This document shows positions 14,628 through 23,521 of a stretch of DNA of 64,000 nucleotides, piece after piece (position 1 is the first letter of the stretch; each line of letters opens with the position of its first letter). The notes under the pieces were generated by a model. That model worked only from the letters and a program-made list of their open reading frames with translations, did not search any database and was not told the DNA's origin. The stretch covers positions 1-64,000 of the forward strand of contig NZ_SJEE01000016.1 in assembly GCF_006937785.1 (NCBI RefSeq). Reading direction: 5' to 3'. Made by a program: the position numbers and the translations under genes. The stretch is from Pseudanabaena sp. UWO311 (GTDB taxonomy: Bacteria > Cyanobacteriota > Cyanobacteriia > Pseudanabaenales > Pseudanabaenaceae).

Positions 14628-14636
14628 ATCACAAAA

Positions 14637-14667
14637 GTAAGAGGCGGTGCTTTGCACCGCCTCTTAC
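14637..14667. terminator. Hairpin between converging genes, GCTTTGC apex
   Basis: Fourteen-base perfect arms 14637-14650 and 14654-14667 around a TTT loop. It lies in the 44-base gap between the converging glycosyltransferase and ndhD genes, so it may terminate both. Confidence 0.7.
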
Positions 14668-14671
14668 TGGA

Positions 14672-16212: not shown

Positions 16213-16251
16213 AATTAAATATTCAGTGCCGTTGGCACTGAATATTTAATT
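16213..16251. repeat. 18-bp perfect hairpin between ndhF and ndhD
   Basis: Arms 16213-16230 and 16234-16251 pair perfectly around a GTT loop with a CC-GTT-GG apex. The right arm overlaps the last codons and stop of ndhF. It lies within the operon and could tune ndhD expression or stabilise the ndhF mRNA end. Confidence 0.75.
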
Positions 16252-19428: not shown

Positions 19429-19438
19429 GGTTGTTTGG

Positions 19439-19524
19439 TATAGCTGTCGCCAAGTGTATCAAGAAATAAAACCCAAAATAGAGTTGCGGCGCTTCGCGCC
19501 GCAACTCTATTTTGGATTTTGGGT
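19439..19524. repeat. MITE-like element (family 1) with 20-bp hairpin
   Basis: It begins TATAGCTGTCGCCAAGTG, then AAAACCC, and contains perfect arms 19473-19492 and 19496-19515 around a TTC loop (GCTTCGC apex). The left flank matches those at 18654 and 50411. The right terminal repeat is degenerate, so the right boundary is approximate. Confidence 0.6.
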
Positions 19525-19536
19525 ATAAGTTCAAAT

Positions 19537-20316: not shown

Positions 20317-20423
20317 TTACAGTGCTTTGTGCTCAAACCCCAATCAAGAAAAATTTTGAAAGCATTGCGAAGCAACGCTTTCAAAATTTTTCTTGTGGCT
20401 CGTTTAATCGGCAATTGCTGTAA
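20317..20423. repeat. MITE-like element (family 2), TTACAG...CTGTAA ends
   Basis: The outer ends TTACAG (20317-20322) and CTGTAA (20418-20423) are inverted. Inside are 19-bp perfect arms 20345-20363 and 20377-20395, plus an inner GCGAAGC apex. The left end TTACAGTGCTTTGTGCTCAAA is shared in near-identical form with the elements at 37004 and, reversed, at 23879. Confidence 0.7.
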
Positions 20424-20432
20424 GTCATAAGT

Positions 20433-20475
20433 CCAACGATTAATAGCGTCGCTTCGCGACGCTATTAATCGTTGG
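20433..20475. repeat. 20-bp perfect hairpin, GCTTCGC apex
   Basis: Perfect arms 20433-20452 and 20456-20475 around TTC. The right arm runs into the end of the mannosidase gene (stop at 20465), so it was placed at or became part of the gene's 3' end. Confidence 0.75.
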
Positions 20476-23400
20476 AATAGAAAAAAGTTTTAATTTCGTA
20501 GGGCTTAAATGTAACTTTCAAGTGATTAGACTCCCCTTTATCTGTAGAAAGTAACGTGTTTTTGTTTTCCATCAAATCGCATTCCCAAATATTCTCTGCT
20601 TGCAATAAATCGAGTGAAATCTCTATTTCCGTCTCAGTTGTTTGCCCATGCGCCTCATAAAAACGCATAATCCAGCCTGATTGATCCTGCGATCGCTTAA
20701 AAGCCGAGAGAATAATATTGGGGGCAGAAACTTCTAAAAAACTTTGTCGCTTGTTTGAAATTAGTAAATTTGGAATTGGGGAATGTTGTAACACAAGAGG
20801 ATTGTTTAGCTCTTGAGCCAGTTGGACAATGTTTGCTTCTCGCCAATCACCTTGATGGGGAACTAAGCGATAGGTAAATTCATGATGACCGCGATCGCTA
20901 TTTGGACTGGGCCAGTTAGGACTACGCAGCAAAGTTAAACGTAAACAGTCAGGCTTTGCGTCATAGCCATACTTACTGTCATTGAGAATACTCAAACCAA
21001 CCCCAGAGTTTGCTCCCGCCGCAGGCGGGAGCAAACTCTCTGGGATTGAAGAAACCGCAATATCTGCCCAATATTGGGCAGAGACTTCCCATTTTGCTTT
21101 TGATTCGAGTGTTTCGCCTAGCGTACTACGCTGAATCGTTCCCATTGGGATTTCGTAAGTAGCATAGGGCGATCGCCAATTCACAGGAAAGGCTACTTTG
21201 ACTAAGGTATATTCCTCTTGCCACTCCACCCAATTTTTAACAGTAATAAATGGCTCAAAGGCTAATAGTTGAATCTCTTGAATAAAGGTTGAATTACGGA
21301 ACTTTTGGACGGTGCGGACTGATACTTGTAGGCTACTATTGCTAGAAATCTCAATTGCTTCAAGCGTTGTCGATTCTAATTTTTTGTTTTCATAATTTGG
21401 ATCAATATTCCATGCATCCCAATATTGTCCCTTGTCTTCAAAGAACTTTAGAGTGCTGGGTGATTGCAAGATCGCTTTTTGCGATCGCTTGTCAAATATT
21501 TGCCCGATCGCACCCATTTTAAGCTCAACCTCAACTTTAAGATATCTATTCTCTAGATAAAACTTTTCACTATCAGAAATAATACTTAAAGGCTCATTTG
21601 TCTCGACAATTCCTCCAGATTCCATCTCTGCAAATCCAAAGCTAGGAATATTCGCTAGCCAACAAAATGAACCGTCTGGCTTTTCGACTAACTGCGATCG
21701 CGACCAGTTGAGAAAATTCCATGCTTGCAAATTAGTGTTTTCTTGAATGTCACGGGGGAAAAGGCGATCGCAAATTTCTCTTGCCTCAGTCCATGTGCGA
21801 TCGGCATCAGTAAATACTTCAGGAATTGATGTGCCAGTGAGAATATCATGAAATTGATTGAGTAATAATCCTTGCCAAGCATTCTCTAATTGAGTTTGAG
21901 GATAGGGAATATTTGTAATTAAAGATGCGATCGCACTATATTTTTCGGCATTGCCAATTAGGACTTCAATTTGGCGGTTTTGGCGTTTTTGTTCGGCTTT
22001 GGAGGTAAATGTGCCGCGATGAAATTCTAAATAGAGTTCATCTTGCCAAACTGGTAAATCTGTGGGTAATTTCTCTTTTAGATTTAATAGAAAATCCTCT
22101 AATGTGCTAGGCTGCATCTCAAAGAAGATGGGTGAATCCGCCCACTTGCGTCCCATGTCGAGCATATCCGCAGTTGGTCCCCCACCATGATCGCCAACAC
22201 CATAAAGCCATGCAGTCTCAGGGATATCGTGGTTTTCTTCTTGAGTAGCAAGATATTTAGCGATCGCGACTGGCTCTAGTCCCAGCCCAATCTCATTACT
22301 AAAATAAGTAAAGATACGACTTCCATCCACACCTTCCCACCAAAAAAGTTGATGCGGGAATTTGTTAGTGTCATTCCACATTAGTTTTTGCGTGACAAAT
22401 GCTTCAAAGCCACTTTTTAAGAGGATCTGCGGCACTTGCCAATGAAACCCAAAGGTGTCTGGCAACCATGCGATTTTGACCTCTTTATTAAATTTCCCTC
22501 GAAAATATTCTTGACCATAGAGAATTTGTCTAATTAAAGATTCTCCACTCGGCAAGTTCCCATCTGGCTCCACCCACATACCGCCGATCGGCTCCCATTT
22601 ACCCTCGGCAACGGCAGATTGAATGCGGGCAAATAATTCAGGATATTCGCGTTCCATCCATTGGTAAGAGACAGCTGTACTTTGATTGAAGATTAATTCT
22701 GGGTATTGCTCTTGGATGTTTAAAGCCGATGTAAATGTGCGTTGCATTGCATCTTTAGTTTCTGCGATCGCCCATAACCAAGCCACATCAATATGCGAAT
22801 TCCCCAGCATATAAATCTGGCGCTGTTTCAGGAATTCGCTATATTGCAGAAGCGGCTTGCGAATTTCCGCGAGATGCGCAAAGAAGCTTTCACTTGTAAT
22901 CGATGCAGACATTGCGAATAGATTAATTAATCTGTTCGCGGCAGTTTCAAGAGCTAGCAAATCAACTTGATGCCTAGTAAAAATTGGGATATAAGTCTGG
23001 AGAATTTCTAATTCGATCGCTAACTGATCAGGATCGCATGGTTGACGCAAATATTCAAAGATTAATTCTGAAAGTTGCAATGCGCCTATGTCGTGTTTAG
23101 GACTATTTAGCTTGATCTCTAGGATAAATTCTTCATGAGGTTCCGCATAATCAGTTAACAAAATCCGACATTTTTGATCAAATAAATCTCCTTCTTGGAC
23201 TTTACTGCCATTAATCCACACCTCGCAAATATCCACCCACCATATTAAATTTAGCCGAATAGTAGAGCCGATTATCGATAATCCAGCATAGCTGTCTGGC
23301 ACTTGCCAAGCTTGCCTTAGATGAATATCTTCCTCGCATTGCAAGAAAGATACCATAGGCTTATTTTGCTTAGAGCTTACTGTTGGCAAAGTCTCCCAAG

Positions 23401-23521
23401 TACCTTGTTTATTTTCTCTTTGCCAATTGTCGAGTATAGATAAACGCGATCGCGATTTTAATTGTTCAATAACTTTAGTCAGACTTGTCACTAAATCAAT
23501 CATTCTATCTATATCTCCCAA
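20465..23521 (-). CDS. Alpha-mannosidase, glycoside hydrolase family 38
   Basis: This 1018-residue enzyme belongs to GH38, which releases alpha-linked mannose with retention. It has the zinc-binding HID motif at 243-245, the catalytic WLPDTFGF with nucleophile D355, and the long C-terminal beta domains. Full-length GH38 proteins are of this size. There is no clear signal peptide, suggesting a cytosolic enzyme. About residues 828-839 derive from a palindrome inserted in frame (21005-21039). HIP1 sites are frequent, so the gene itself is native. Its 3' end overlaps another hairpin. Confidence 0.85.
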   Translation of the reverse strand: MGDIDRMIDLVTSLTKVIEQLKSRSRLSILDNWQRENKQGTWETLPTVSSKQNKPMVSFLQCEEDIHLRQAWQVPDSYAGLSIIGSTIRLNLIWWVDICEVWINGSKVQEGDLFDQKCRILLTDYAEPHEEFILEIKLNSPKHDIGALQLSELIFEYLRQPCDPDQLAIELEILQTYIPIFTRHQVDLLALETAANRLINLFAMSASITSESFFAHLAEIRKPLLQYSEFLKQRQIYMLGNSHIDVAWLWAIAETKDAMQRTFTSALNIQEQYPELIFNQSTAVSYQWMEREYPELFARIQSAVAEGKWEPIGGMWVEPDGNLPSGESLIRQILYGQEYFRGKFNKEVKIAWLPDTFGFHWQVPQILLKSGFEAFVTQKLMWNDTNKFPHQLFWWEGVDGSRIFTYFSNEIGLGLEPVAIAKYLATQEENHDIPETAWLYGVGDHGGGPTADMLDMGRKWADSPIFFEMQPSTLEDFLLNLKEKLPTDLPVWQDELYLEFHRGTFTSKAEQKRQNRQIEVLIGNAEKYSAIASLITNIPYPQTQLENAWQGLLLNQFHDILTGTSIPEVFTDADRTWTEAREICDRLFPRDIQENTNLQAWNFLNWSRSQLVEKPDGSFCWLANIPSFGFAEMESGGIVETNEPLSIISDSEKFYLENRYLKVEVELKMGAIGQIFDKRSQKAILQSPSTLKFFEDKGQYWDAWNIDPNYENKKLESTTLEAIEISSNSSLQVSVRTVQKFRNSTFIQEIQLLAFEPFITVKNWVEWQEEYTLVKVAFPVNWRSPYATYEIPMGTIQRSTLGETLESKAKWEVSAQYWADIAVSSIPESLLPPAAGANSGVGLSILNDSKYGYDAKPDCLRLTLLRSPNWPSPNSDRGHHEFTYRLVPHQGDWREANIVQLAQELNNPLVLQHSPIPNLLISNKRQSFLEVSAPNIILSAFKRSQDQSGWIMRFYEAHGQTTETEIEISLDLLQAENIWECDLMENKNTLLSTDKGESNHLKVTFKPYEIKTFFYSND
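21005..21039. repeat. Palindrome inside the mannosidase coding region
   Basis: Perfect 16-base arms 21005-21020 and 21024-21039 around GCA (CC-GCA-GG apex). It is in frame and codes for roughly ESLLPPAAGANSG. Its structure is the same as that of the intergenic hairpins, which suggests insertion or capture of the element in a permissive loop. Confidence 0.7.

Follow-up and report, generated by a model that had tools for sequence, protein, structure and literature searches.

A perfect in-frame palindrome in a Pseudanabaena GH38 mannosidase gene: a permissive-loop hairpin possibly maintained by template switching

The window, the whole 64,000-nucleotide stretch of Pseudanabaena DNA analysed here, contains a perfect palindrome in which 16-base arms flank GCA (16 + 3 + 16, read directly from the sequence). 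As the first-pass annotation had correctly described, it lies in frame at codons 828–839, numbered from TTG, of a GH38 mannosidase gene. The features of the locus are as follows (G numbers denote genomes, G000 being the window's own).

20465–23521, minus strand: GH38 alpha-mannosidase gene that holds the palindrome (ORF of 1018 amino acids from TTG; Pfam; Ams1 structures)
21005–21020, plus strand: left arm, AGAGTTTGCTCCCGCC (sequence)
21021–21023, plus strand: apex GCA, equal to TGC on the coding strand and inverted in G016 (sequence, alignment)
21024–21039, plus strand: right arm, GGCGGGAGCAAACTCT (sequence)
21014–21058, minus strand: approximate insert of 15 codons, about residues 822–836, missing from short-loop homologues, with alignment-dependent edges
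20997–21049, minus strand: extended imperfect hairpin (predicted mRNA fold)

On the coding strand the palindrome reads CCAGAGAGTTTGCTCCCGCC-TGC-GGCGGGAGCAAACTCTGGG and encodes the peptide PESLLPPAAGANSG. Pfam finds the GH38 N-terminal, middle and C-terminal domains on the host ORF (GH38N 9.3e-86, GH38C 2.1e-48), and the protein matches Ams1 structures (2e-123). Because a stop stands at codon 6 in G016 and G019, the in-frame ATG at codon 7 (23503) is a likelier start than the TTG. The closest GH38 genes among named relatives are nearly all labelled Pseudanabaena; that of G009 (L009 / L069) has an in-frame stop at residue 510 and is either a pseudogene or carries a sequence error. A 20-base palindrome without spacer (TCTGCCCAAT/ATTGGGCAGA) also occurs at 21063–21082 of the window, in conserved GH38 codons adjoining the insert. 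The AlphaFold model of the enzyme has a mean pLDDT of 46 and so says nothing on surface exposure or active-site distance.

In the C-terminal region of GH38, two conserved segments (WADI... and ...GLSILNDSKYGYD) flank the loop that holds the palindrome. This loop is 15 residues shorter in G004, G007, G010 and G014, a 15-residue gap falls there in all three structure chains with alignments examined (7vqo, 6lz1, 7dd9), and 18 of the 19 homologues from outside the genus show 13–19 gap positions, the remaining one (L027) having an unrelated long loop with no comparable palindrome. The earlier proposal that a gap in GH38 homologues would support insertion is borne out by these alignments, and the opposite case, the same residues without the palindrome, was not seen in the gapped homologues and structure chains. 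Most simply, the short loop would be the ancestral state, and at the level of aligned sequence the loop is shown to be a true insert relative to the outgroups. On a gene tree built without the loop, palindrome presence needs at least three changes and hairpin kind at least five.

A sample of 1.2 Mb, or 23% of the 5.2 Mb assembly, with mechanical ORF calls, was used to place the palindrome in its genomic setting. ORFs of at least 200 amino acids contain 20 palindromes in this sample (arm at least 11, loop at most 9), and only those in the GH38 gene and on contig C30 join arms of at least 16, a 3-base apex and a mid-gene place; a further three, whose arms are longer and whose apex also has three bases, are found no more than about 45 bases from where an ORF ends. 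The expected number of 16 + 3 + 16 palindromes by chance is 0.0002 in 876,759 nt of such ORFs. That a chance palindrome was fixed by protein-level constraint is exceedingly improbable: nothing was found in favour of it, and it is opposed both by this expectation and by the behaviour of the loop across the genus, where amino acids vary between lineages while complementarity stays and many loops outdo all of their shuffles (see below).

The palindrome on contig C30 (C30:38114–38148, or L104:10115–10149) is likewise 16 + 3 + 16, in frame and built on the octamer apex CTCCCGCC, within a Wzy_C O-antigen-ligase-like gene, and encodes SLPPSAGE; it is the one other coding palindrome with the same apex that a search suggested by the first-pass annotation turned up. 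The full octamer apex, CTCCCGCC-NNN-GGCGGGAG (CTCCCGCCNNNGGCGGGAG), is found at only these two places in the 5.2 Mb assembly, both coding. The two genes also have in common the reading frame LPPxAG, a coincidence without significance, since independent cases would agree 1 time in 3. Among 13 Wzy_C orthologues, G012 (L154) has an unlike palindrome in the same loop, those of G005 and G011 are worn, and the others show none by eye. The G012 palindrome, TGTTTCCCCGCC-TTC-GGCGGGGAAACA, is in frame and is the core of a dispersed CCCGCC-apex family.

Perfect inverted repeats (arms at least 10, spacer at most 8) amount to 15.1 bp per kb in the sample as against 0.23 in first-order simulated sequence, and the bacterial mean given for equal arm and spacer limits is 3.14 bp per kb (as stated in PMC13155455). 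The spacer has three bases in 231 of 354 inverted repeats with arms of at least 14, and the 329 sample hairpins (arms at least 14, loop 1–7) divide into 183 in 12 sequence clusters and 146 that are single. The window itself holds 38 palindromes with arms of at least 10, mostly intergenic and often with a 3-base apex, its hairpins including those at 14636–14668, 16213–16251, 19468–19520, 20345–20395 and 20432–20476.

Does the GH38 palindrome belong with these? The first-pass annotation called it the same kind as the intergenic palindromes, which is right for form (perfect arms, 3-base apex) and wrong for sequence: the closest other hairpin arm in the sample agrees with the GH38 arms at 69%, on which ground membership in the intergenic hairpin families was rejected. 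The CCCGCC apex occurs in two of the 329 sample hairpins, namely the two coding ones, and at ten places in the whole genome, the other eight being outside called ORFs. CCCGCC-apex repeats with conserved flanks recur (10 of 10 places opened in G000, 15 of 53 in G011). Two dispersed hairpin families with a CCCGCC-NNN-GGCGGG apex were noted (L183, L186, L213–L235), GGTTTGTTTCCCCGCC and AAAATCGGTTTTTTGAAAGCCCGCC, the flanks of the former resembling GAAGTACG...GTACCTCGC. Against the dispersed CCCGCC families, the GH38 arms reach 64% agreement with one and 44% with the other; the GH38 apex may be related to the dispersed GTTTGTTTCCCCGCC family. The arm sequence is single copy in its own genome and intragenic.

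These data bear on a reading in which a small mobile palindromic element (MITE- or REP-like) was inserted in frame, the differences between species being independent insertions or replacements in a permissive loop. Such an element would account for the clean insertion seen against short-loop homologues, and dispersed families of hairpins are indeed present, with over half of the sample hairpins clustered and with conserved flanks around CCCGCC-apex repeats, G012 holds a dispersed-family core in frame in its Wzy_C gene, and two G000 genes have the octamer apex and LPPxAG frame in common. We nevertheless consider it doubtful, as the GH38 arm is single copy, resembles no other sample hairpin or CCCGCC family beyond the agreement given above, and has an octamer apex that occurs only twice; insertion alone, moreover, does not predict the concerted changes and apex inversions between orthologues described below. 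A family-level search for Y1_Tnp, the transposase family to which the RAYT of REP/REPIN belongs, gave three matches in G000 and none in G007, though G007 has a coding palindrome and an inverted repeat density of 20.6 bp per kb in the stretch read.

REP/REPIN sequences and the small dispersed repeats of cyanobacteria are, as Elhai reportedly described in 2008, small palindromic hairpins present in many copies per genome, repeated and mostly extragenic. The GH38 arm differs in being single copy and intragenic, and it was not found as a multi-copy conserved extragenic sequence. Rickettsia palindromic elements, as characterised in PMC10969869, are about 150 bp long, form ten families with 44 integrations in one genome, and each have a conserved peptide. 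The likeness lies in palindromic DNA in frame inside genes and tolerated as a peptide insert, and the GH38 palindrome is indeed an in-frame insertion in a protein gene, with a gap in homologues and the frame kept. It departs from the elements of that account in that the insert is only about 45 bp long, in having two coding apex copies in 5.2 Mb where a repeated family in many unrelated genes was looked for, and in a peptide that differs between groups of species. Since the arms reach at best 69% agreement with any other hairpin of the sample and the octamer apex occurs only twice in the assembly, spread of an element from gene to gene on the Rickettsia pattern is not supported. The earlier account is thus partly supported: insertion holds; sequence kinship with the intergenic palindromes and Rickettsia-like spread do not. 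HIP1, whose motif is GCGATCGC (as given in PMC4390886), was also rejected, the motif being absent from 21005–21039. A literature search for Pseudanabaena with inverted repeats and genome found no paper.

The same loop was then compared across the genus, with 15 duplicate rows removed from the alignment before hairpin kinds were sorted. The loop palindrome is better than all 300 shuffles in 9 of 21 Pseudanabaena GH38 orthologues; the loops of G006 and O153 are matched by 2 of 300 shuffles, and ten others by 11 to 287 of 300. Four kinds of loop hairpin were found.

Kind 1: G000, G016, G019; CTCCCGCC apex
Kind 2: G005, G011, G022 and P. biceps O153; other arms, worn in O153
Kind 3: G013; a quasi-palindrome
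Kind 4: G018, G009; AGAGAATGTTGTTGCTCC type

When the apexes were placed manually, left and right arm of one species agreed at 17–19 of 20 positions in eight of the ten hairpin species (14 in O153, 5 in G013), and the left arms of unlike kinds agree with each other at 40–70% (20–40% for G013). Arms and amino acids thus vary between groups while arm complementarity persists. The exchange between the G000 kind and the G018/G009 kind within the closest clade is confined to about 70 bp, and the same split is seen at three scattered positions within 450 bp downstream (+228, +234, +351) and at none upstream; the swap could reflect short-tract recombination.

Within kinds, G018 and G009 are one concerted pair apart, which alters two amino acids (A/S, Q/K), and G005 and G022 are two concerted pairs apart, or one concerted and one unpaired under another apex setting. 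Among G000, G016 and G019 no concerted arm change was found at this loop, only apex changes and one one-sided change: the coding-strand apex is TGC in G000 and GCA in G016 (codon A vs Q), the one-sided arm change accompanying it. Two further palindrome sites occur in the same gene of other species (L079:9144–9182, L080:10907–10943, L074:9621–9649). At a second site in the gene the apex is AAA in G010 and TTT in G007, with nine bases added and about a dozen codons unlike those of other species, and a third site is present in G021.

Six genome pairs on disjoint gene-tree paths were compared, five of which yielded data. Of 206 hairpins tried, 14 were comparable (181 were without synteny in the pieces fetched, 2 were short and 9 had diverged). 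These 14, with 274 paired positions, show 17 concerted changes against 0.76 expected if the arms changed independently, 1 unpaired double change and 14 one-sided changes, and 5 of 11 changed loops are exact reverse complements (4 of 9 among 3-base loops; one of the five inverted sites has a 1-base loop). Control windows, mirrored and drawn at random anywhere rather than spacer-matched (1500 per pair, 2310 comparable), gave 253 double changes against 219 expected over 41,580 pairs, and 6 of 475 changed loops were reverse complements.

The concerted signal is chiefly intergenic, since 16 of the 17 changes fall outside ORFs and the remaining one at an ORF end. The ten sites outside ORFs have 16 concerted and 8 one-sided changes, and inversion accounts for 4 of their 7 changed loops. 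Well inside GH38 genes there are three sites; they have no concerted change, 1 double change that is unpaired and 6 one-sided changes, these six all belonging to one worn site of G021/G002, and of their 3 changed loops 1 is inverted. A single site where GH38 ends (3') in G004 has 1 concerted change. For the coding site in the GH38 loop the concerted signal is carried by G018/G009, G005/G022 and the contrast between kinds.

Overlapping comparisons (32 of 64 rows tried, with 26 distinct sites and 584 pairs) gave 26 concerted changes against 0.96 expected, with 2 unpaired double and 26 one-sided changes; among the 32 loops, 8 were exact reverse complements, 9 were unchanged and 15 differed in other ways. 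In G016/G018, spacers are inverted between identical arms (AAA/TTT and GCGAA/TTCGC). G011/G022 gave no comparable hairpin, 62 of 62 lacking synteny in two stretches that share only about 12 kb of alignments. Several readable orthologues of window hairpins have unlike but complementary arms or an inverted apex; the intergenic hairpins at 14636–14668 and 16213–16251 have arms that changed and yet stay largely complementary in some relatives. A filled and empty site lies at 19429–19536 of the window (hairpin 19468–19520), where G000/G018 and G016/G019 have a 108–113-base spacer with unlike hairpins in the two pairs, and G009, G011 and G022 have a 21-base spacer and no hairpin.

The hairpin could also be retained by selection because its RNA or DNA structure has a function, such as translation pausing, mRNA stability or protein binding. 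The predicted mRNA fold is very stable (−49 kcal/mol for a 106-nt piece, equalled by none of 200 shuffles, z −6.97), concerted changes between orthologous hairpins are what such selection would yield, and hairpin sites are commoner between convergent (97) than divergent (53) genes, with 174 between tandem genes, so that some intergenic hairpins may act as terminators. The GH38 palindrome itself was rejected as an intrinsic terminator, given its mid-gene place and neither arm being followed by a T run. Structural selection is an improbable explanation of the GH38 hairpin: 12 of the 21 orthologues lack a loop palindrome that beats every shuffle, which makes it dispensable to the gene; G-T mismatches, which RNA tolerates, are not clearly commoner than A-C mismatches in the 139 intergenic tandem-gene hairpins (18 vs 13); and apex inversion is not predicted. 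As structural selection would also yield concerted changes, apex inversion alone is specific to template switching.

Concerted change in the arms of orthologous hairpins, together with apexes that flip between species, points to template switching, and with modest confidence we suggest that the GH38 palindrome is a hairpin kept by this process in a permissive loop. Replication meeting the hairpin would let the nascent strand switch to the other arm or to the sister strand and then back; the switch would copy one arm onto the other, and the apex would flip when the switch spans it. Such a mutational bias would keep the palindrome, the peptide being a tolerated by-product, and only in-frame outcomes would survive. 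On this view the sequence of the stretch would be shaped by errors in copying hairpins and not by the protein. The first hairpin may have arisen either when a switch took place at a short inverted repeat, for instance the AGAG...CTCT of some short-loop species, or by insertion of a repeat core, to which the palindrome in the Wzy_C gene of G012 points best. That hairpins are tolerated because SbcC, the palindrome nuclease, has been lost was rejected, a match over model positions 1–1042 being present in 22 of 22 Pseudanabaena genomes; these matches are below the curated cut-off (passed by 3 genomes out of 36), and the search is not specific, since 14 of 14 control genomes match too.

In yeast genes, arm homogenisation and spacer inversion are treated as marks of template switching between inverted repeats (in the account of PMC8604942), and template switching has been proposed to make and keep RNA stems (in that of PMC8794818). 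Both marks are seen here, the concerted changes mainly outside ORFs and the spacer inversion with arms unchanged in G016/G018, the G000/G016 case at GH38 carrying one one-sided change. The S. cerevisiae repeats described in PMC8604942 are perfect, coding, with 10–16 base arms and 2–5 base spacers, and spacer inversions such as AA/TT and GAA/TTC replace amino acids while arms are homogenised. As far as that description goes, the likeness extends to coding inverted repeats, spacer inversions and homogenised arms; the yeast case concerns strains of one species, whereas the Pseudanabaena changes lie between bacterial species with arms that differ by lineage, and the GH38 palindrome, unlike the yeast repeats, is in an outgroup-absent insert and a genome rich in perfect inverted repeats. 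Nematomorph mitochondrial genes, too, are described as having coding perfect inverted repeats, with arms of up to 284 bp that encode conserved protein (PMC6649704); against those so described, the GH38 loop is short and variable.

Concerted changes at paired positions are usually taken as proof of selection on RNA structure. Here they accompany apex inversions, and like hairpins occur in a coding insert absent from many relatives; a mutational process may thus produce what looks like that signal. Tentatively, and as a possibility that we hold to be rather unlikely, the whole genus may be subject to a palindrome drive, in which unusually active template switching would create, lengthen, homogenise and flip triloop hairpins, mainly between genes and sometimes within them, rewriting whole protein loops in frame faster than point mutation. 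If so, the GH38 gene would naturally record the process, as different species have three such sites in it. Pseudanabaena offers a bacterial setting for measuring template switching and the role that it plays in new protein segments.
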